A stretch of 64,000 bases of DNA. It comes from Bacteroidota bacterium. Its GTDB lineage: Bacteria > Bacteroidota > Bacteroidia > 2-12-FULL-35-15. The first letter of the stretch is position 1. Each line of letters starts with the position of its first letter. The DNA is taken from contig JAQZBR010000005.1 in assembly GCA_029237775.1 (NCBI GenBank), forward strand, positions 62,001-126,000, in the 5' to 3' direction. Shown piece after piece: positions 8,346-47,601 of this stretch. A program made the translations under genes and the position numbers. Under the pieces are notes generated by a model. It did no database searches. It saw only the letters and a list, made by a program, of their open reading frames with translations, and was not told the origin of the DNA.

Positions 8346-9188
8346 ATGAAAACATTTGTTATTACCGGAGCTACCGGTGCGATTGGGAAAGCAACTGCAA
8401 TGGAACTTGCAAAGCCGGGAAATAAATTAATCCTTCTTGGAAGAAATAAACAAAAACTTGATCAGGTTATAAAGGAGATCAAATCTGCAACTGCGAATCC
8501 GAATATAGAGGGAGTCATTGCCGACTTTTCGGATATATCGTCAGTAAAAAAAGCTGCAGGCCAGATCAAAAACAAAATAACACAGTTGAACGGATTGATC
8601 AATATAGCTGCTTGTTATAAGGCGAAAAAAGAATTCACAAAAGACCTTTTCGAATTCATGTTCGGAGTCAATCACATGGCAGTTTTCGTTCTGACTAAAG
8701 AATTGTTAAGCCTGATCAATGCTACTCCGGGAGCCAAAGTGCTTACGGTTTCCGCGCCTTCCTCAACACCACTAAACTTTAGCGATTTAAACGGTGATAC
8801 AAAATTCAGCGCGTTCACTGCCTTTGGCGCTTCAAAAATGGCGAACCTGCTTTTCACATTTGCGCTGTCAAAAAGGATGCATGGTGTTGGGACAAGCGCT
8901 ATTGCCTTTCATCCCGGCCTGACAAAATCAAGTTTAACCCGCGAAATGCCTTTCTTCGTAAGAGGACTGCTTAACCTGATCAGCCATAAACCTGAAAAAC
9001 CTGCCCATTCTATTGCTCAACTTGTGAGCGGAATCCATTTCAATGATATGAATGGAAAGTTTTATGACTGTAAATTTAAAGAATTACCTAAGCCTGGTAA
9101 TTCCTCAGACGAAGCGATACAAGAAAAGCTTTGGAAAGTGAGTGAAGAAATAGCCAACAGGTTTGAAAAACCAGTTGCTGTACATTAA
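8346..9188 (+). CDS. short-chain dehydrogenase/reductase with Phe for catalytic Tyr
   Basis: A 280-aa Rossmann-fold protein of the retinol-dehydrogenase-like SDR group. The cofactor motif TGATGAIG is at residues 7-14, Asp60 follows the third strand, and Asn109 in VNH is the structural Asn. In the active-site helix the family has Y-x-x-S-K, but here residues 160-164 read FGASK, so the catalytic Tyr is Phe160 (codon TTT at 8823) while Lys164 is kept. The NNAG motif is also altered (NIAAC). It still should bind NAD(P), but redox catalysis by the usual mechanism is doubtful. It ends at a strong terminator, so it is its own unit. Confidence 0.85.
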   Translation: MKTFVITGATGAIGKATAMELAKPGNKLILLGRNKQKLDQVIKEIKSATANPNIEGVIADFSDISSVKKAAGQIKNKITQLNGLINIAACYKAKKEFTKDLFEFMFGVNHMAVFVLTKELLSLINATPGAKVLTVSAPSSTPLNFSDLNGDTKFSAFTAFGASKMANLLFTFALSKRMHGVGTSAIAFHPGLTKSSLTREMPFFVRGLLNLISHKPEKPAHSIAQLVSGIHFNDMNGKFYDCKFKELPKPGNSSDEAIQEKLWKVSEEIANRFEKPVAVH

Positions 9189-9207
9189 AGTGTACAGCTA
9201 TCAATAT

Positions 9208-9240
9208 AAAGGGCCGTCATTTCGTTACGGCCCTTTTTAT
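9208..9240 (+). terminator. rho-independent terminator
   Basis: Stem AAAGGGCCGT / ACGGCCCTTT with an A/T-rich loop, followed by TTTAT. It ends the SDR transcript. Confidence 0.9.
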
Positions 9241-9448
9241 TGATTCTCGCCAGAATAAAATACCGACAAAATAGCAAAATACAACATTTTATATTGCTTT
9301 TAATTACCATTAAAGAATTAAAGTAAATAATTTTTACATTGGACTACATTTTTATAAGGTTGGTCTAATACATTATGAAAACGATGGGGTGTTTCCTAAT
9401 TTTAATATTGTATATATCATGAGGGACTAACTCATCTATCAACACACC

Positions 9449-11539
9449 ATGGCGGAATCAGTAATGGATAAAAAAAGGAAAATAAATTCTTCACTCTCTG
9501 AAGAAACTTTGTTAAAAGGCTTTGAATTAATGTGTACTGCGAAATCTCTTGCGGAACTATATGAAGCAAACAAAGAAGTTACAGCTAAATATGTTCACGC
9601 TACTTCGCGTGGACATGAAGCGATCCAGTTAGCAGTCAGTTTACAACTTAAGCCGCAGGATTTTCTTTCAGCTTATTATCGCGATGATAGTATGCTATTG
9701 GGAATTGGTATGACTCCCTATGAACTAATGCTGCAGGTGCTTGCAAAAAGAGACGATCCTTTTTCGGGTGGAAGAACATATTATTCTCACCCGAGTTTAC
9801 GCAGGGATAATATGCCAAAGATCCCGATGCAGTCATCTGCTACAGGAATGCAGGCTATCCCGACCACCGGTGTAGCTATGGGTTTACAATACCTGGAAAA
9901 ACAAGGCCTTGCTGTTGATTATGGTGATGATAAACCAATCGCTGTTTGCTCACTGGGTGATGCCTGCATTACTGAAGGAGAAGTTGCTGAAGCATTCCAG
10001 ATGGCTGTTTTAAAGAAAATGCCCATCCTATACGTTGTGCAGGATAATGAGTGGGATATTTCCGCGAATGCAAAAGAGATTCGCGCACAGGATGCAACTG
10101 AATATGCAAAAGGCTTCAAAGGACTTGAAACACGCACAATTGATGGAACGGATTTCGAGAAGTCATATAATACAATCAAAGAAGTGATCGCGATCATCCG
10201 TAAGGAGCGCAGACCATTTCTGATCCATGCAAAAGTTCCATTATTGAATCATCACACTTCTGGAGTTCGTAAAGAGTGGTACCGCGATGATCTTGATGAA
10301 GCGCAAAAACGCGATCCTTTTCCAAAGCTTCGCAACCAGATGCTGGTGGCAGGATTTGAGGGATCAGAGCTTAGCGCAATAGAAAAAAATGCGAAAATAA
10401 AAGTAGAAGAAGATTATCAGAAAGCATTGCTGGCTGAAGATCCGCAACCATCAGACCTTTTCGATCACGACTTCGCTCCTACCCCGGTAACAGAAGAAAA
10501 AGGTGAACGTGAACCTGCAGGAAAAGAAAAAACCGTAATGGTGGATTCTGCATTATTTGCGATTCGTGAATTAATGGCGAAACATCCTGAATGCCTGTTA
10601 TACGGACAAGACGTGGGTGGCAGGCTTGGCGGTGTTTTCCGTGAAGCAGCTACACTTGCTCAAACCTACGGTGATAACAGAGTTTTTAACACACCTATCC
10701 AGGAGGCGTTTATTATCGGCAGCACTGTTGGAATGAGTGCTGTCGGATGTAAACCAATTGTTGAAGTTCAGTTCGCTGATTACATCTGGCCTGGCTTAAA
10801 TCAGTTATTCACTGAAGTGAGCCGTTCATGTTATTTATCAAACGGTAAATGGCCGGTGAGCTGTATTATCCGCGTTCCTATTGGAGCTTATGGCAGTGGT
10901 GGTCCGTACCATTCATCAAGCGTTGAAAGCGTGCTTGCGAATATCCGCGGAATAAAGATCTGCTATCCTTCAACCGGTGCCGATCTGAAAGGGCTGATGA
11001 AAGCAGCTTACTATGATCCTAATCCGGTGATCATGCTTGAGCATAAAGGTTTATACTGGAGCAAGATCAAAGGAACAGAAGATGCACGCACTATCGAGCC
11101 TGATGAAGATTATATCATCCCTCTCGGAAAAGCAAGAATGGTTCAGGAGGTTGAAAAGAGCACAGAAAAAGCAACCTTAACCATCATCACTTACGGGATG
11201 GGCGTTTACTGGGCAAAGAATGCAAGTAAAGAATTTGCCGAACAAGTAGAGATAGTGGATCTACGAACGATCAATCCACTGGATGAAGCAACTGTATTTG
11301 CATCTGTAAGAAAACACGGAAGATGTATGGTGCTGACTGAAGAACCTTATAACAACGGCTTCGCGCAAGCGCTTGCTGGAAGAATTTCCAAATTCTGTTT
11401 TGAATCGCTGGATGCTCCTGTTGAAATTATCGGTGCAGAAAATTTACCTGCGATTCCGTTAAATTCAACTTTGGAAACAACAATGCTTCCCAACGCAAGT
11501 AAGGTTGCCAAAGCGATTGATCAATTATTAAAGTATTAA
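9449..11539 (+). CDS. 2-oxo acid dehydrogenase E1, fused alpha and beta subunits
   Basis: A 696-aa thiamine-diphosphate enzyme that joins E1 alpha (about residues 20-340) and E1 beta (about 363-696) in one chain. The alpha part has the TPP/Mg motif, GD at 170-171 through N200 (QDNEWDIS). The beta part has PIQEAFIIG and a transketolase C-terminal domain. It would decarboxylate a 2-oxo acid (branched-chain 2-oxo acid most likely, pyruvate or acetoin possible) and pass the acyl group to a lipoyl E2. No E2 or E3 gene is in the window, so partners are encoded elsewhere. A linker rich in Glu, Pro and Lys (about 335-365) joins the halves. Confidence 0.93.
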   Translation: MAESVMDKKRKINSSLSEETLLKGFELMCTAKSLAELYEANKEVTAKYVHATSRGHEAIQLAVSLQLKPQDFLSAYYRDDSMLLGIGMTPYELMLQVLAKRDDPFSGGRTYYSHPSLRRDNMPKIPMQSSATGMQAIPTTGVAMGLQYLEKQGLAVDYGDDKPIAVCSLGDACITEGEVAEAFQMAVLKKMPILYVVQDNEWDISANAKEIRAQDATEYAKGFKGLETRTIDGTDFEKSYNTIKEVIAIIRKERRPFLIHAKVPLLNHHTSGVRKEWYRDDLDEAQKRDPFPKLRNQMLVAGFEGSELSAIEKNAKIKVEEDYQKALLAEDPQPSDLFDHDFAPTPVTEEKGEREPAGKEKTVMVDSALFAIRELMAKHPECLLYGQDVGGRLGGVFREAATLAQTYGDNRVFNTPIQEAFIIGSTVGMSAVGCKPIVEVQFADYIWPGLNQLFTEVSRSCYLSNGKWPVSCIIRVPIGAYGSGGPYHSSSVESVLANIRGIKICYPSTGADLKGLMKAAYYDPNPVIMLEHKGLYWSKIKGTEDARTIEPDEDYIIPLGKARMVQEVEKSTEKATLTIITYGMGVYWAKNASKEFAEQVEIVDLRTINPLDEATVFASVRKHGRCMVLTEEPYNNGFAQALAGRISKFCFESLDAPVEIIGAENLPAIPLNSTLETTMLPNASKVAKAIDQLLKY

Positions 11540-41431: not shown

Positions 41432-42691
41432 ATGCAGAAAACATTATTGCTTTTTTTTATGACACTCCTTTGCTCACACAAAGTGAATGCTCAATTCGCA
41501 GATTTCCAGTTTCACAGAAAGCTTGATAAAGTCGGGACCGAAAATTATTACTCAGTTCCACTTTCACCCGCTATAATAGCAAACATGCAAAATCCGCTTG
41601 ATGATCTGCGGATCTATAACATTGACGGAAAGGATACCATCGAAGTTCCGTTTCTGCTTGAGTATCACGGGGATGAAACTATTGAAACACCTGTTAAGTT
41701 TGAATTAATCAATGATGTTACGCGGTTAAAGTGTTGCTCTTATATCACCTTAAAGATGCCAAAGAAAATGGTCATAAACATGATCAATCTGAAGGTTCTT
41801 GAAAATAATTTCGATAAGATACTCAGTGTCGAAGGGAGCAACGATAATAAAGAATGGTTCACGATCGCCAGCCATTTAAGGATCACAGGCTTCGAAAATT
41901 CAAACTCAAGCTTTCGTAGCACATCGGTAAGGTTCCCTTCCTCTGAATTTGTTTACTTCAGAATTAAATTTGATGATGATTCAAGTCCTAAGATCACGGT
42001 AACCGATGCTAATGCTTTCGAAAACAAAACTATCAAAGGTAACTATGATGAAATCGCGATAGTTAAAAGCAGTCAAGTGGAAAACAAGAAAGAGAAGACC
42101 TCTGAGCTGATACTTGAGTTGAAGGGGAATAACAGGCTTAGCTATATTCTTTTGAAAAGCAACGCAAAGAATGACTTCTATAGGAATATTAATATATACA
42201 AATCAAACGGAAGTTACCAGACCCCCAAAGGTCCTGAAGAAGCCTGGCAGATAATAAATTCCGGAGTGGTTATTTCAAATACAAGCAATGAGCTTTCATT
42301 ACAGAATGAACATTCCTCAAAATTAAAAATTGAAATTATCAATCATGATAATCAACCTATTTCCTTTGATGAGATAAAACTTTATTCAGAAAAGATAGAG
42401 ATGAAGGCGAAATTACCTGCCAGTGAAAATCTTTTTCTTGTGTATGGGAGTAAGTCGATAGCTGCACCCGTGTATGACCTGGTACATTTTCAAGAAAAGA
42501 TTCCGCAATCCCTATCTGTAATAAATTCTGGGAAAGAAGAAATTCAAGCGGCAGTATTGGTGGGGAAAGCGAATGAGCCGTTCATACAAAACAAAAAGTG
42601 GCTTTGGCTTATCATGGGTTCTTTAATAATTCTGATTGGATATTTTGCATTCAGCATGCTGAAAAAAGAAAACAGCGAAGATAATGTTTAG
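41432..42691 (+). CDS. DUF3999 family exported protein
   Basis: A 419-aa protein with a signal peptide (MQKTLLLFFMTLLCSHKVNA), a long extracytoplasmic beta-rich region and one C-terminal membrane segment (about 388-408). DUF3999 proteins are the usual neighbours of DUF2339 membrane proteins. Being anchored with a large external domain, it may receive or bind something in the periplasm for the DUF2339 partner. The stop overlaps the stop of the convergent phosphatase gene by three bases. Confidence 0.82.
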   Translation: MQKTLLLFFMTLLCSHKVNAQFADFQFHRKLDKVGTENYYSVPLSPAIIANMQNPLDDLRIYNIDGKDTIEVPFLLEYHGDETIETPVKFELINDVTRLKCCSYITLKMPKKMVINMINLKVLENNFDKILSVEGSNDNKEWFTIASHLRITGFENSNSSFRSTSVRFPSSEFVYFRIKFDDDSSPKITVTDANAFENKTIKGNYDEIAIVKSSQVENKKEKTSELILELKGNNRLSYILLKSNAKNDFYRNINIYKSNGSYQTPKGPEEAWQIINSGVVISNTSNELSLQNEHSSKLKIEIINHDNQPISFDEIKLYSEKIEMKAKLPASENLFLVYGSKSIAAPVYDLVHFQEKIPQSLSVINSGKEEIQAAVLVGKANEPFIQNKKWLWLIMGSLIILIGYFAFSMLKKENSEDNV

Positions 42692-43971
42692 AGCTTTAAT
42701 CCGAACAAAAGCATGTCATCCACTTGTTCATGATCTCCTTTCCAGTCATTCATATAGTTTTCAATAATCACCTTCTGTTGAATCATATGCTTGAAGCGGA
42801 GTGATGAAAGAAATGTTTTAAATCTCTTTTTCATAAGCTTCTTACTTTTCTCTCCGCCAAACTGATCAATAACACCATCTGTAAATAAGTAGAGCATGTC
42901 ACCGGGTTCTGCTTGTTTAAAATTTGTTTTAAATCCGGGGAGTTCATGATCATTGTCGCGGGTTCCGCTGATCGCCCGTTTAGTGCCTTTTATTTCTTCC
43001 AGTCCGTGCTGGTGCATGATCCACAAAGGCCGGTTCGCACCTGCAAATTCAATCAGATGTGTATTAAGATTGATACTGCAAACGGCTACATCCATTCCGT
43101 CTTTTGGATCCTTTTGACGAAAAAAATTAGAAATTTCAACGTTGAGCTCGTCTAAAATATCAGCCGGTTTAGTGATCTGTTTCTCATTTATGATTTTATT
43201 CAGCATGATCGTCCCTGCAACACTCATTAACGCACCGGGGACACCATGGCCTGTGCAATCCACTACAGCGATGATAAGTTTATCATCGCATTTTTCCAAC
43301 CAGTAAAAATCTCCGCTGACAATATCTTTCGCCTGATTGTACACGAACCAATCAGAGACAAGCTCATCGAGCATATCTGTTTCAGTAAGCATCGCTTCCT
43401 GTAACTTCCTGGCATAAATTATACTATCCGTTATATTTTTGTTTTTTTCCTCAATCTCCCTGAATGCATTTTTCAATTGTCTGTGCAATTCTTCTACTGC
43501 TTCTTTCTCACGCTTTATAAGATCTCCAGCCAATATATTTTCGATGGACGCAGGCAGCCTTTTCAAGGAATGTTTAAGAATATAGTCATTCACTCCTGCT
43601 TTCATGCATGACACTGCAAACTCTTCAGATACAGTGCCTGTAACGAGTATAAAAGGTATGTTGTAGTTCTTATTAACAATAGCAAAAGCATCAAGAGAAT
43701 TGAACTTTGGAAGTGCATGATCAGAAAGAATGATATCAGGTTCAAAATTATTCAACCCTATAATAAAATCCTCTCTTGTATCAACCACATGAAGGGTGAA
43801 AACCAATCCTGACATACTTAACTCGCGTTTGATCAGTCCCGCATCGGATGGATTATCCTCCAGCAATAATATTTTCAGATGCTTCTTCATAGAAATTGCG
43901 GGCGATTGACAGGGAGATTCAATCTTTTTATGAAGTTCACGAAAACTTTGTGCCCGACTATTTTTATTCAT
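42688..43971 (-). CDS. response regulator with SpoIIE-type PP2C phosphatase
   Basis: A 427-aa protein: receiver domain (about 33-150; phospho-Asp84 in IILSDHALPKF, Lys in DYILKHSL), a coiled coil (about 155-195) and an SpoIIE PP2C phosphatase (about 200-427; SGDFYWLEK, VDCTGHGVPGALMS and LYLFTDGVID with metal-binding Asp residues). It dephosphorylates a serine/threonine-phosphorylated partner, typically a STAS anti-anti-sigma protein. ATG 43971 directly follows the stop of the kinase gene; an in-frame ATG at 43890 is an alternative. Receiver residues closely match those of the neighbouring kinase. Confidence 0.9.
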   Translation of the reverse strand: MNKNSRAQSFRELHKKIESPCQSPAISMKKHLKILLLEDNPSDAGLIKRELSMSGLVFTLHVVDTREDFIIGLNNFEPDIILSDHALPKFNSLDAFAIVNKNYNIPFILVTGTVSEEFAVSCMKAGVNDYILKHSLKRLPASIENILAGDLIKREKEAVEELHRQLKNAFREIEEKNKNITDSIIYARKLQEAMLTETDMLDELVSDWFVYNQAKDIVSGDFYWLEKCDDKLIIAVVDCTGHGVPGALMSVAGTIMLNKIINEKQITKPADILDELNVEISNFFRQKDPKDGMDVAVCSINLNTHLIEFAGANRPLWIMHQHGLEEIKGTKRAISGTRDNDHELPGFKTNFKQAEPGDMLYLFTDGVIDQFGGEKSKKLMKKRFKTFLSSLRFKHMIQQKVIIENYMNDWKGDHEQVDDMLLFGLKL

Positions 43972-45060
43972 TTAATTCAGGGCAAGATCAGGCAGATCAA
44001 GAATAACTGTAGTCCCCATCTGCTCCATGCTAGTTATTTCAATTTTCCCATCGAGCTTATCTGTTCCTATTTTAACAAGATAAAGGCCCAGTCCAATTCC
44101 GTCTGATTCAGTGTTTGCTCTGTAAAACATATCGAATACCTTTGGAAGGCATTCCTCCTTAATACCCGCTCCGTTATCTGCTATGGATATCGAGGCTCCA
44201 TTCTCATTCGACCATATATTTATATTAACATAAGGCCCCGGAACGGAGAAATTCTGGAATTTCACAGCATTATCGATAATACGTTTCAGAACGAGTGTAA
44301 TGATCTTTGAATCAGAATAAAATGATGACTGCAGGTTTGATTCAATACTAAACTTGAGTTTATTACCGGTTTGTGTGGTATAACCTGCTATAATTTCATT
44401 AACAATCGCCTTTAGATTCACTTCTTCTTTCACAACATTCATATCACGAACTCCAAGGGTTTCGATAAGATCAACGACAATCCTGTCCATTCGTTCAGCG
44501 CTTACATTCATCATATCAATAAGCTTCATAAGTTCGGAAGGCTCATTTTCGATCTTTGCGATGTTTATCAAACCTTTCATAGAGCTTAATGGCCCGCGAA
44601 TATCGTGCGAGGCCCGATACATGAAGGTCTTAAGTTCATGATTGACCTCCTGCAGTTTGAGAATGTTCTGCTCTCTTTCGCTTTCCGCTTTCTTTTTAGT
44701 GAAAGCGTTAATAATGGCGGAGGGCAAGCGGGTTAGTGATGATTTCAGAACGTAGTCGTTGGCACCTGCTTTTAGAATGTTAACGGCAAATTCTTCCGAA
44801 ACGGTGCCGGTTACTAATATAAAAACACATTCACGGCAATATTGGTGAGCGAGAGGAAGGGCTTCTTCTGAAGTAAAGGATGGGAGGGAATGATCCGATA
44901 AAATTACATGTGGCTTAAATTCAAGAAGAGCAGCAATAAAATCATCTTTATTATCGACTACCCTGTGTTCATAGCGAAGGTCCGACATCTTCAATGCTCT
45001 AACTGTAAGACCTGCATCAGCAGGATTATCTTCCAAAATCAAAATCTTCAGCACAAACAT
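43972..45060 (-). CDS. receiver-histidine kinase hybrid
   Basis: A 362-aa soluble protein: receiver (about 4-120; phospho-Asp56 in VILSDHSLP), a short coiled coil, HisKA with His152 (SHDIRGPLSS) and an ATPase domain with DNAVKFQ, DNGAGIKEE and DGIGLGLYLVK. With the abutting phosphatase protein it forms a linked module. The receiver shares the phrase ILVTGTVSEEFAV with that protein. The kinase may phosphorylate one or both receivers. A terminator at 45083-45134 isolates it from the small-protein genes upstream. Confidence 0.92.
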   Translation of the reverse strand: MFVLKILILEDNPADAGLTVRALKMSDLRYEHRVVDNKDDFIAALLEFKPHVILSDHSLPSFTSEEALPLAHQYCRECVFILVTGTVSEEFAVNILKAGANDYVLKSSLTRLPSAIINAFTKKKAESEREQNILKLQEVNHELKTFMYRASHDIRGPLSSMKGLINIAKIENEPSELMKLIDMMNVSAERMDRIVVDLIETLGVRDMNVVKEEVNLKAIVNEIIAGYTTQTGNKLKFSIESNLQSSFYSDSKIITLVLKRIIDNAVKFQNFSVPGPYVNINIWSNENGASISIADNGAGIKEECLPKVFDMFYRANTESDGIGLGLYLVKIGTDKLDGKIEITSMEQMGTTVILDLPDLALN

Positions 45061-45186: not shown

Positions 45187-45495
45187 TCAGTAGGTATTAA
45201 CCGCAATCTCATCTCCTATCGATAAAACATCTGCCACATGATATTCCCCATTCTTCACCAAAAATGCGAGCCACTGATTTGTGTTTTTAACCGGACTAAT
45301 GCTACAAACTATATAACCTTTATCTGTGAGATATTTATCAACTTGTTTAGCTGTTTTATAGGCCGAAGCATTGGTCTCCGGTTTTCCAATCTCTTTTATT
45401 ATCAGACTCCCGAACGTATATAACAAGATTCCGATTGCTGTAATAAACACAAGAAAGAATACTATTTCCGGAAAGGAGGTGAAGGCTGATTGCAT
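45187..45495 (-). CDS. small membrane protein, paralog of the next gene
   Basis: A 102-aa protein with one membrane segment (about 8-33) and a soluble domain: NASAYKTAKQVDKYLTDKGY, VCSISPVKNTNQWLAFLV, then AVNTY at the end. No family is recognised. The stretch NASAY...VDKYLTDKGYIVCSISP aligns with the upstream gene's NAASY...VNEYLVSHGYTVVSLAP, so the two are paralogs. It is 4 bp after the upstream gene and is second in a two-gene operon. Confidence 0.75.
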   Translation of the reverse strand: MQSAFTSFPEIVFFLVFITAIGILLYTFGSLIIKEIGKPETNASAYKTAKQVDKYLTDKGYIVCSISPVKNTNQWLAFLVKNGEYHVADVLSIGDEIAVNTY

Positions 45496-45499
45496 ATAT

Positions 45500-45793
45500 T
45501 TATAGTGGCATGTCTGTATTTCCTACAATACTAGTTTCTGTGCAATACACTGTAGTGGTATATCGAACAAGATTCTTAGATGTCTGAGCTGTCCAATCCA
45601 TACTTCCTGACTTTGGTGCTAGACTAACAACGGTATATCCGTGCGATACTAAATATTCATTTACCTGACTATATGAGGCAGCATTCGCCTCGCTTACTGT
45701 CTTAATTCCCTTGGTTGATAATACTACTGACCCACCTGTAAATAAAGCTATTAATAATACACCCTTAAGCACTAATTTCACGACCTGTCTCAT
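45500..45793 (-). CDS. small exported or membrane protein, paralog of the previous gene
   Basis: A 97-aa protein with a membrane segment or signal peptide (about 8-26) and a C-terminal soluble domain. The core VNEYLVSHGYTVVSLAPKSG and MDWTAQTSKN correspond to the downstream paralog. Its own start is ATG 45793. Across a 347-bp divergent spacer lies a large helical-repeat protein gene. It is the first gene of a two-gene operon ended by a terminator at 45083-45134. Its function is unknown. Confidence 0.75.
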   Translation of the reverse strand: MRQVVKLVLKGVLLIALFTGGSVVLSTKGIKTVSEANAASYSQVNEYLVSHGYTVVSLAPKSGSMDWTAQTSKNLVRYTTTVYCTETSIVGNTDMPL

Positions 45794-45864
45794 GTTTTGT
45801 TGATTTATAAGTTAAACTGTTACTTTGATTGATACAAAGTAACATCTGTCAGAATAATAAAACA

Positions 45865-45891
45865 TGGACAAATCGTACAATCACGCAACAT
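45865..45891 (+). promoter_or_regulatory. first copy of the TGGACAAAT...GCAACAT repeat
   Basis: TGGACAAAT, N11, GCAACAT. Copy 2 is at 46043-46069 with the same 11-base spacer. Both also share GT two bases into the spacer. It lies 72 bp from the minus-strand start at 45793. It is a candidate binding site of a regulator that acts on both transcripts. Confidence 0.6.
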
Positions 45892-46042
45892 CCTCAAAGA
45901 CGTTTATTTTAAAGGGATTTATATAAAAATATAGCATATTTTTACATCGCAGTTAATTTTTGTTTTTTCTTTAACACATCTCGTTTTTTCAGAAATGCAT
46001 TAATTTTATTTACAAAACTCGCGAACTTCACGAACATACAAC

Positions 46043-46069
46043 TGGACAAATGGTCTATTTATGCAACAT
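46043..46069 (+). promoter_or_regulatory. second copy of the TGGACAAAT...GCAACAT repeat
   Basis: TGGACAAAT, N11, GCAACAT in the same orientation as copy 1, 178 bp apart and 71 bp before the ATG at 46141. Confidence 0.6.
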
Positions 46070-46140
46070 TCAATAAACCATTAATAACAGTAGGTTTCCT
46101 GTCAAAAAACAGCTTTTTTTAATTAATAAATCAAACAAGA

Positions 46141-47601
46141 ATGGCACAGTTTATCGATTCAATATTGGAAAGTTTAACCGATTCTGAAAAATGGGTAGTT
46201 GAGCGTTTTTTTTCCTTACAACAGAAAAACAACAACTATTTAACAAGAAAATATATTGTTAATAAAATCAAAAAAGTCAAAGCTGACAAGTCGAATGTTT
46301 TCAGCAGGACCTTAGTTTCAAGAGCTTTTGACGAATTGAGTGAGGTATTGACTTCTACCTATCATTTAAATAATGGAAATTTCAGTCGACACGATAGAAT
46401 TCTTTTACAATTAAAAAAGAAAATTTTGCTAGCAAGAATAATATCGAAGAATCTAAATCAAAATAAGATGAAATCTTTTAAGGTTTACTTGAATGTACTG
46501 ATTTCCGAAGCCTTAAAGAACGAAATATATGAGGTTGCGATAGAAGCGTTGATTATTAAGAAATACGCATATGCCCTGAAAGAAGGTTCCAGAGAATTTC
46601 AGAAGACCAATCAGCTCATTGATTACCTAGAACTCTGTCAAAAGAAAACCTTTTATGCAGCTGATTGCTATTTTATCATTGTCAGTAATAACGACTTATT
46701 AAAATTAAAAGATAGTAAAGCACTACACGACTATATACTGAAAACTATTAGAATCCTTAAGGCTGATTACAAAAAATTTAAATCGTCTCAGATCAATTAT
46801 TATTTACAAATTATTCTAATGTATTATAATGAGAAACGAAAAAAGTACAATTTGGCGAGCAAATATGCGAAACAAATCTTCGACCTAGTAAAGAATTCCC
46901 CTGTATTGTACAGAGAAGAAAGATTGGGATTTGCAATGATAAATTTAAGTCAATACAAAACACTTACTGGAAATTATTCCTCAGCTGCTAAATACATAAA
47001 GTTATCGCAAGCCTATTATATCGAAAGCTCCAATAATTATCTTATTTCGAAAAATCAGGAATTTTTAATTTTTTTATATCAGAAAAAGTACGATAGAGCA
47101 CAAAGTTGTTTAAATGAATTGATGGAACACAAACTTTCCGATAGCGGTACTTTTAACCACGCGAAGTATATATATTATAATGCAGTGCTCCTTTTTCAGC
47201 GAAAAGAATTCAAGAAGTCTTTAACAGTACTTGCAAAGTCGCTCGAAATTGAAAAAGATAAAACAAGATGGAATATTTCTGTACGAGTACTAAGTATCAT
47301 GCTATTTATCGAACTAAGAAAAGTGGATGAAGCTATTTTAGCATTGCAATCGTTGCGGAAATATGTTGAACGACAAAATAAAACAAAGGAAATAACTAAA
47401 AGAGATATTTTAATAGTGAAACTACTGCTAGAACTGGAAAAATCAGGGTTTGACTATGATAAAAACAATTTCACATTAAAAAGAGGCTTTGAAAAGCTTT
47501 CAGAAATCAACTCAATATATTCCTGGCAGTATTTCAGCTCTGAACTTATCCCCTTTCATGAATGGGTCAATAAATTCATCATTTCTAAACATATGGATTA
47601 A
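46141..47601 (+). CDS. AT-rich helical-repeat (TPR-like) protein of unknown function
   Basis: A 486-aa, all-helical, lysine-rich protein without a signal peptide or membrane segment. The first 60 residues (LTDSEKWVVERFFSLQQ ... SRTLVSRAFDEL) could be a small DNA-binding or dimer domain, but no clear HTH is visible. The rest has repeated helix pairs with TPR-like phrases (AGNYSSAAKYIKLSQAYY and FNHAKYIYYNAVLLF). One sample line of the gene counts 25% G+C against 40% in the neighbouring ATPase gene, a sign of transfer or fast change. It might regulate the divergent small-protein operon; this is inference from place. Confidence 0.75.
   Translation: MAQFIDSILESLTDSEKWVVERFFSLQQKNNNYLTRKYIVNKIKKVKADKSNVFSRTLVSRAFDELSEVLTSTYHLNNGNFSRHDRILLQLKKKILLARIISKNLNQNKMKSFKVYLNVLISEALKNEIYEVAIEALIIKKYAYALKEGSREFQKTNQLIDYLELCQKKTFYAADCYFIIVSNNDLLKLKDSKALHDYILKTIRILKADYKKFKSSQINYYLQIILMYYNEKRKKYNLASKYAKQIFDLVKNSPVLYREERLGFAMINLSQYKTLTGNYSSAAKYIKLSQAYYIESSNNYLISKNQEFLIFLYQKKYDRAQSCLNELMEHKLSDSGTFNHAKYIYYNAVLLFQRKEFKKSLTVLAKSLEIEKDKTRWNISVRVLSIMLFIELRKVDEAILALQSLRKYVERQNKTKEITKRDILIVKLLLELEKSGFDYDKNNFTLKRGFEKLSEINSIYSWQYFSSELIPFHEWVNKFIISKHMD

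Follow-up and report, generated by a model that had tools for sequence, protein, structure and literature searches.

What do two direct repeats in the gap between two divergent genes of a Bacteroidota bacterium control, and which protein is likely to bind them? The window, that is, the whole stretch of 64,000 nucleotides that was analysed, contains a gene for a 97-amino-acid protein starting at position 45793 on the reverse strand and a gene for a 486-amino-acid TPR protein starting at position 46141 on the forward strand, with a 347-bp intergenic gap between them. The repeat TGGACAAAT-N11-GCAACAT is found in this gap at 45865–45891 and 46043–46069, and its 16 fixed bases are exact in both copies, just as a preliminary description of this DNA had reported. 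The start codon nearest to each copy is 71 bp away, in agreement with the approximately 72 bp given there, and from this placement it was proposed that one regulator could control both divergent genes, with one copy for each.

The 27-mers of the two copies are identical at 21 of 27 bases, and when the 347 bp were shuffled 300 times with dinucleotides preserved, 3 of the shuffles contained an equally similar pair, so that the repeat on its own, at about 1%, is suggestive but not overwhelming. The 4.08-Mb genome contains two exact sites and two more at two mismatches, and thus no scatter of copies. The earlier statement that chance is an unlikely origin draws only this suggestive support from shuffling, while the retention of both copies in three relatives settles that the repeats are real. 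When the 486-amino-acid protein was searched against 59 genomes, 58 from relatives in addition to the window's own, matches were found in 14, its own genome counted. In the three closest relatives (L034, L035 and L036), where the TPR homologues are 54–56% identical, both copies are retained without a change of orientation, in the form TGGACAAA[TC]-N9-[AG]TGTAACAT. Their copy-to-start distances are 73–83 bp and 87–88 bp, and the near-equal distance to both starts is therefore a property of the window genome only. Loci L037–L040 contain two TGGACA-type copies, in which the second half is altered, and in loci L042–L047, where the gap measures about 110 bp, there is one copy only, with TGTCC beginning 45–54 bp from the ATG of the TPR gene in the single-copy loci of the genus.

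Read leftward, each copy ends with TGTCCA, which is followed by a 22-bp gap and then by an 8-bp box ending with TTTG. The left copy (45865..45891, reverse strand) reads ATGTTGCGT-N9-ATTTGTCCA and is followed by the box TTACTTTG at 45835..45842, while the right copy (46043..46069, reverse strand) reads ATGTTGCAT-N9-ATTTGTCCA and is followed by the box GAGTTTTG at 46013..46020, both boxes being on the reverse strand; each copy is a pair of tandem half-sites, of a putative proximal and a putative distal promoter, respectively. The 27 bp are not the whole unit, since each copy has a TTTG box to its left at a constant spacing. This geometry was spotted by eye within the genus and counted afterwards, with TTTG scored at every offset from -70 to +69 relative to TGTCC. 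At +32 it is present in 8/8 left copies, 7/8 right copies and 7/7 single copies, only the right copy of L040 departing from this, with TTTA. The only other offset common to most left and right copies is -2, where TTTG overlaps the element itself; with the box centred at -7, this TTTG overlapping TGTCC would lie at about -40, and it occurs in 15/16 two-copy sites and 0/7 single sites. Each of the 22 elements within the genus also has a second half-site, NGT, whose first base lies between -19 and -21, and the 22-bp gap stays constant in these relatives while the remaining intergenic region diverges.

The same arrangement extends beyond the genus, where TGTC[CT]-N27-TTTG, read leftward, is found in 7 of 16 intergenic regions, as compared with 14 of 14 within the genus. 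The pattern is absent from the other 9 out-of-genus loci, and the strict form TGTCC-N27-TTTG, which was relaxed after inspection of L092, L093 and L137, is present in 3 of the 16; the out-of-genus expectation from 500 shuffles has a mean of 0.048 and a maximum of 1. Leftward gaps of 20–26 and 28–35 yielded no hit in either set of intergenic regions. In six of the seven out-of-genus elements NGTC, as the second half-site, lies at -19 or -20. Later start codons were taken for L045, L090, L094 and L096, and L133, where the two genes are tail-to-tail, was excluded from the intergenic set.

The accounts of Bacteroidota promoters in PMC7366714 and PMC2483708 place TAnnTTTG near -7 and TTTG near -33. 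Both TTACTTTG and GAGTTTTG fit TAnnTTTG at 5 of the 6 specified bases, a close but imperfect match, and the TGTCCA half is positioned about where the -33 box would be; the distance from the -7-like box to the start of the small gene is 24–55 bp for the left and single copies. In view of this fit and position, the copies are read as upstream elements of predicted leftward promoters. The module thus shares with the Bacteroidota housekeeping promoter a -7-like box ending with TTTG, but it has TGTCCA and an upstream half-site in place of the -33 box, and the gap is exactly 22 bp. The repeat had been described as unlike a Bacteroidota promoter element, which holds for the motif itself, though not for the -7 box of its predicted promoter. 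A search of Rfam for a known RNA element gave one match, far below the gathering score.

With both copies read as leftward promoter elements, they would form tandem promoters of one gene and not one operator for each gene. The separate assignment of the copies, as proposed in the preliminary description, draws on the 71 bp between each copy and a different start codon in the window genome, and it appears quite improbable: the distances are unequal in relatives, and both copies point in one direction, each 22 bp upstream of a leftward -7-like box of the same kind, with no rightward equivalent in the 14 in-genus intergenic regions. The rightward pattern, toward the TPR gene, gave one hit in total, at a gap of 22, and none at a gap of 27.

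Looping between the copies in helical phase was also considered; their spacings of 178, 187, 189, 189, 135, 141, 134 and 123 bp do not all correspond to an integral number of 10.5-bp turns, and the idea was dropped for this reason. Duplication of a longer unit is evident in L052 (L035 being the same gene), with 102 bp at 72% identity, and weak in L036 and L039, and it is claimed for these loci only; in the window it is undetectable beyond the element itself. A perfect 10-bp inverted repeat, TGTTACTTTG / CAAAGTAACA, at 45818–45844 overlaps the proximal -7 box, and its left arm is absent from the three close relatives.

The composite pattern ATGTTRCAT-N9-ATTTGTCCA-N26-TTTG, with at most three mismatches, matches 9 sites in four genomes, 8 of which are at the module formed by the TPR gene and the small gene, while the reversed control of the pattern matches 0 sites in the same genomes. 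The pattern is local to the module, and a dedicated regulator of one operon is therefore favoured, in line with the earlier suggestion of a dedicated regulatory site, which is also borne out by the persistence of the two copies in relatives that keep the genes. Another possibility is that an alternative sigma factor uses the TGTCC box as its -35-type element, with no separate activator, as the rigid spacing of the two boxes would allow. This is very improbable, since the pattern is confined to a single operon, the TTTG box downstream is the one described for the main sigma factor in PMC7366714, and the conserved second half-site two helical turns upstream would be left unexplained.

Among the gene clusters shared between module neighbourhoods, the two largest are those of the TPR gene (23 loci) and of the small gene. 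With a profile built from 14 small proteins, hits were obtained in 15 of 395 genomes of the class; 10 of these lie outside the genus, and in all 10 a divergent TPR gene accompanies the small gene. A wider profile detected 23 of the 395 genomes, and in the 11 further, weaker hit regions a TPR gene is present in 7 (6 divergent and 1 tail-to-tail) and in none of the other 4 (L131, L136, L138 and L139), which were set aside as the fetched stretch held no TPR gene. Sequence identities of the TPR and small proteins correlate (r 0.65 over 25 pairs), a value reached by 0 of 2000 permutations. In a sample of the phylum, 6 of 395 genomes gave hits, of which only the window's own is convincing; the other five are weak, and the frames that contain them span about 700 codons in four cases and 170 in the fifth. 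Among TPR-family genes away from a divergent small gene, 0/9 carry the pattern in the 600 bp upstream. No relative was found in the plasmids and viral contigs searched. A defence system was rejected, the single PADLOC hit being weak (E 0.002).

As judged from sequence comparison, the TPR gene and the small gene thus constitute a recurring module, which has no name and is scattered in Bacteroidota; the named records holding its loci are assemblies of uncultured Bacteroidetes or Bacteroidota, and no description of such a module was found in the open-licence literature. Its occurrence in the genus is patchy, as the small gene is present in 9 of 36 genomes. The stretch 46000–46999, which covers the start of the TPR gene, has a G+C content of 0.30, against 0.34–0.42 in its surroundings; together with the patchy occurrence, this makes a horizontal gain possible. 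In L042 (5683–7206) and L089 (4748–6230) the TPR gene is in two frames beside an intact small gene, which would reflect either a broken gene or an assembly error.

The 97-amino-acid protein (45500..45793, reverse strand) comprises a hydrophobic N-terminus and a domain of about 57 residues with a predicted fold. Hydrophobicity of the N-terminus is common to 24/24 aligned members (12-residue mean hydropathy of 1.68–2.95), and judged from this feature, export of the small protein by the Sec system appears likely. Members are 87–114 residues long, some thus exceeding 100 residues. The domain is confidently predicted to consist of one helix and four strands, and a search with this fold returned nothing with E below 0.4. 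No Pfam family scored above the cut-off for either the small or the TPR protein of the window, and among the aligned members only generic TPR models were matched by many.

The small gene is followed on the same strand by a gene for a 102-amino-acid paralogue (45187..45495) and, as probable further genes of an inferred operon, by a response regulator-histidine kinase (43972..45060) and a response regulator-SpoIIE phosphatase (42688..43971), the latter being the probable operon end. Genes similar to the response regulator-histidine kinase follow the small gene in L037, L038 and L039, and across module loci the downstream genes are often a second small paralogue and response regulator or kinase genes. 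The paralogue at 45187–45495 has a membrane-like N-terminus in the window, in L038 and in L039, and none in L034 or L036, a variation that suggests exported and retained forms of one domain.

The 486-amino-acid TPR protein (46141..47601, forward strand) is the candidate receptor or regulator. Its model is all-helical and built of repeats, matching TPR proteins, with a mean pLDDT of 84.9 and block means of 61–72 over the first 80 residues. In Pfam, TPR families match the window protein with scores under their cut-offs. The open frames of certain relatives extend further, to about 540 residues. The best structural alignments of the model are to RapI (Z 20.9, 298 residues aligned, 4.1 A) and NprR (20.6), with the Rap of pLS20 at 20.6, the animal TPR protein LGN at 19.3 and AimR with DNA at 16.8. 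The identity to RRNPP receptors in these matches is only 9–13%, with unrelated TPR proteins close behind. The predicted likeness to the Rap/NprR fold is real but not exclusive, and it may be no more than the TPR fold, since eukaryotic TPR proteins score nearly as high. A sequence search of the PDB with the whole TPR profile at E <= 1 gave no Rap, NprR or other RRNPP receptor; its three hits were rat RAP, a Hop TPR construct and the ribosomal protein eL36. The match to rat RAP (E 0.0006, 62 positions) is a likeness in name only and was ignored, as was a PDB hit to a cytochrome c trimer, a weak match repeated three-fold.

Searches of the N-terminal 110 residues recognised no DNA-binding domain, the model being weakest over the first 80 of these. 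A winged helix at the N-terminus was considered from helix-turn-helix-like spacing seen by eye in the alignment; it was supported by none of the searches and is not claimed. LytTR and SARP-type activators recognise direct repeats placed at a set spacing from the promoter, to which the tandem half-sites of the module, about 20 bp apart and at a fixed distance from the -7 box, bear a resemblance, but neither of the two DNA-binding domains was found in the TPR protein.

The explanation favoured here, with a confidence a little better than even, is that the repeats are upstream elements of predicted tandem leftward promoters of the operon of the 97-amino-acid gene, with the TPR protein as the likeliest activator. 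Both promoters would read leftward into the gene of the exported protein and its operon. Each element would be bipartite, with half-sites about 20 bp or two helical turns apart and a TGTCCA end 22 bp from the -7-like box. A factor bound at the element could touch RNA polymerase and would therefore most likely act as an activator of weak promoters. That factor is most likely the divergently encoded 486-amino-acid protein, a plausible binder of the candidate sites, and this protein may respond to the exported small protein, whole or as a fragment, which would close a feedback circuit. The sites, their orientation, fixed geometry and conservation, and the recurrence of the gene pair, follow from the sequences themselves, whereas promoter activity, binding by the TPR protein, an activating role and the sensing of the small protein are inferred. 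The predicted folding of the small protein, unlike the short linear precursors of pheromones, speaks against this explanation.

The TPR protein might instead bind the same sites as a repressor, with the exported protein or its fragment relieving the repression. A site near -36 could block as well as recruit the polymerase, and in the single-copy loci of the genus the element is close to the start of the TPR gene. Repression is nevertheless considered unlikely, as a repressor would be expected to tolerate more variation than is seen in the 22-bp gap, fixed amid a diverging intergenic region, and as -7 boxes one base off TAnnTTTG might suit an activator-dependent promoter.

The twin promoters could also be bound by another transcription factor, for instance a response regulator, with the TPR protein binding that factor in a Rap-like manner, an arrangement that is likewise considered unlikely. 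The closest structural matches of the TPR model include regulator-binding Rap proteins (RapF-ComA and RapH-Spo0F), several loci have signalling genes downstream of the small gene, and the TPR protein itself has no recognised DNA-binding domain. However, inspection of the ORF list by eye for L043 and L044, both single-copy loci, revealed no recognisable gene of this kind next to the small gene, and a general factor should have further targets, yet 8 of the 9 composite hits are at the module.

The module invites comparison with the RRNPP systems of peptide quorum sensing, which include Rap-Phr, NprR-NprX, PlcR-PapR and AimR. A short peptide, in most cases the C-terminal end of a propeptide, serves as their mature signal, and their receptors contain a DNA-binding helix-turn-helix or act by regulator binding of the Rap type. 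The module is similar in that a small protein with a hydrophobic N-terminus is encoded beside a TPR protein, whose model is closest to RapI, NprR and the Rap of pLS20. The criteria set out in PMC10075063 include a Sec-exported propeptide of 10–100 residues, a receptor of 250–500 residues with TPRs, and adjacent genes, -60 to 400 bp apart. Four of these five features are found in the module, namely a small protein of 97 residues, a receptor of 486 residues, the TPRs and the 347-bp adjacency. The module differs in belonging to the phylum Bacteroidota, while the large survey of RRNPP systems, as presented in PMC10075063, analysed Firmicutes only. It differs further in that its small protein is predicted as a folded domain and not as a short tail peptide, its TPR protein has no recognisable helix-turn-helix, and its TPR profile has no sequence match to Rap or NprR in the PDB at E <= 1. 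The predicted folding of about 57 residues argues against a short C-terminal mature peptide. On these grounds the module is described as possibly working like an RRNPP system and not as a member of that group.

A wider reading, which is tentative and more doubtful than the promoter assignment, is that the module mediates cell-cell signalling by a peptide or mini-protein in Bacteroidota, where a Rap/NprR-like receptor would sense the divergently encoded exported small protein and switch the twin promoters on, a system that would have evolved independently of the RRNPP systems of Firmicutes or be very distantly related to them. If true, the module would be a concrete candidate for receptor-and-signal communication in Bacteroidota, and its promoters would represent a class with a rigid distance between the upstream element and the -7 box, usable for finding further modules.

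Two further sites resemble the promoters of the module. An orphan copy, TGTCCA-N22-GACCTTTG, is located at 1471–1527 of L146 (G003 contig 10); no module gene was recognised beside it, its flanks resemble the module intergenic region, and it is perhaps a relic of a lost module. In L039, a second TPR gene (8962–10422) is preceded by TGGACAAATCAACCACCAAAATGACAT 60 bp before its start, with TTTC and not TTTG as the downstream box, and its divergent neighbour is a 298-amino-acid ORF of another family.
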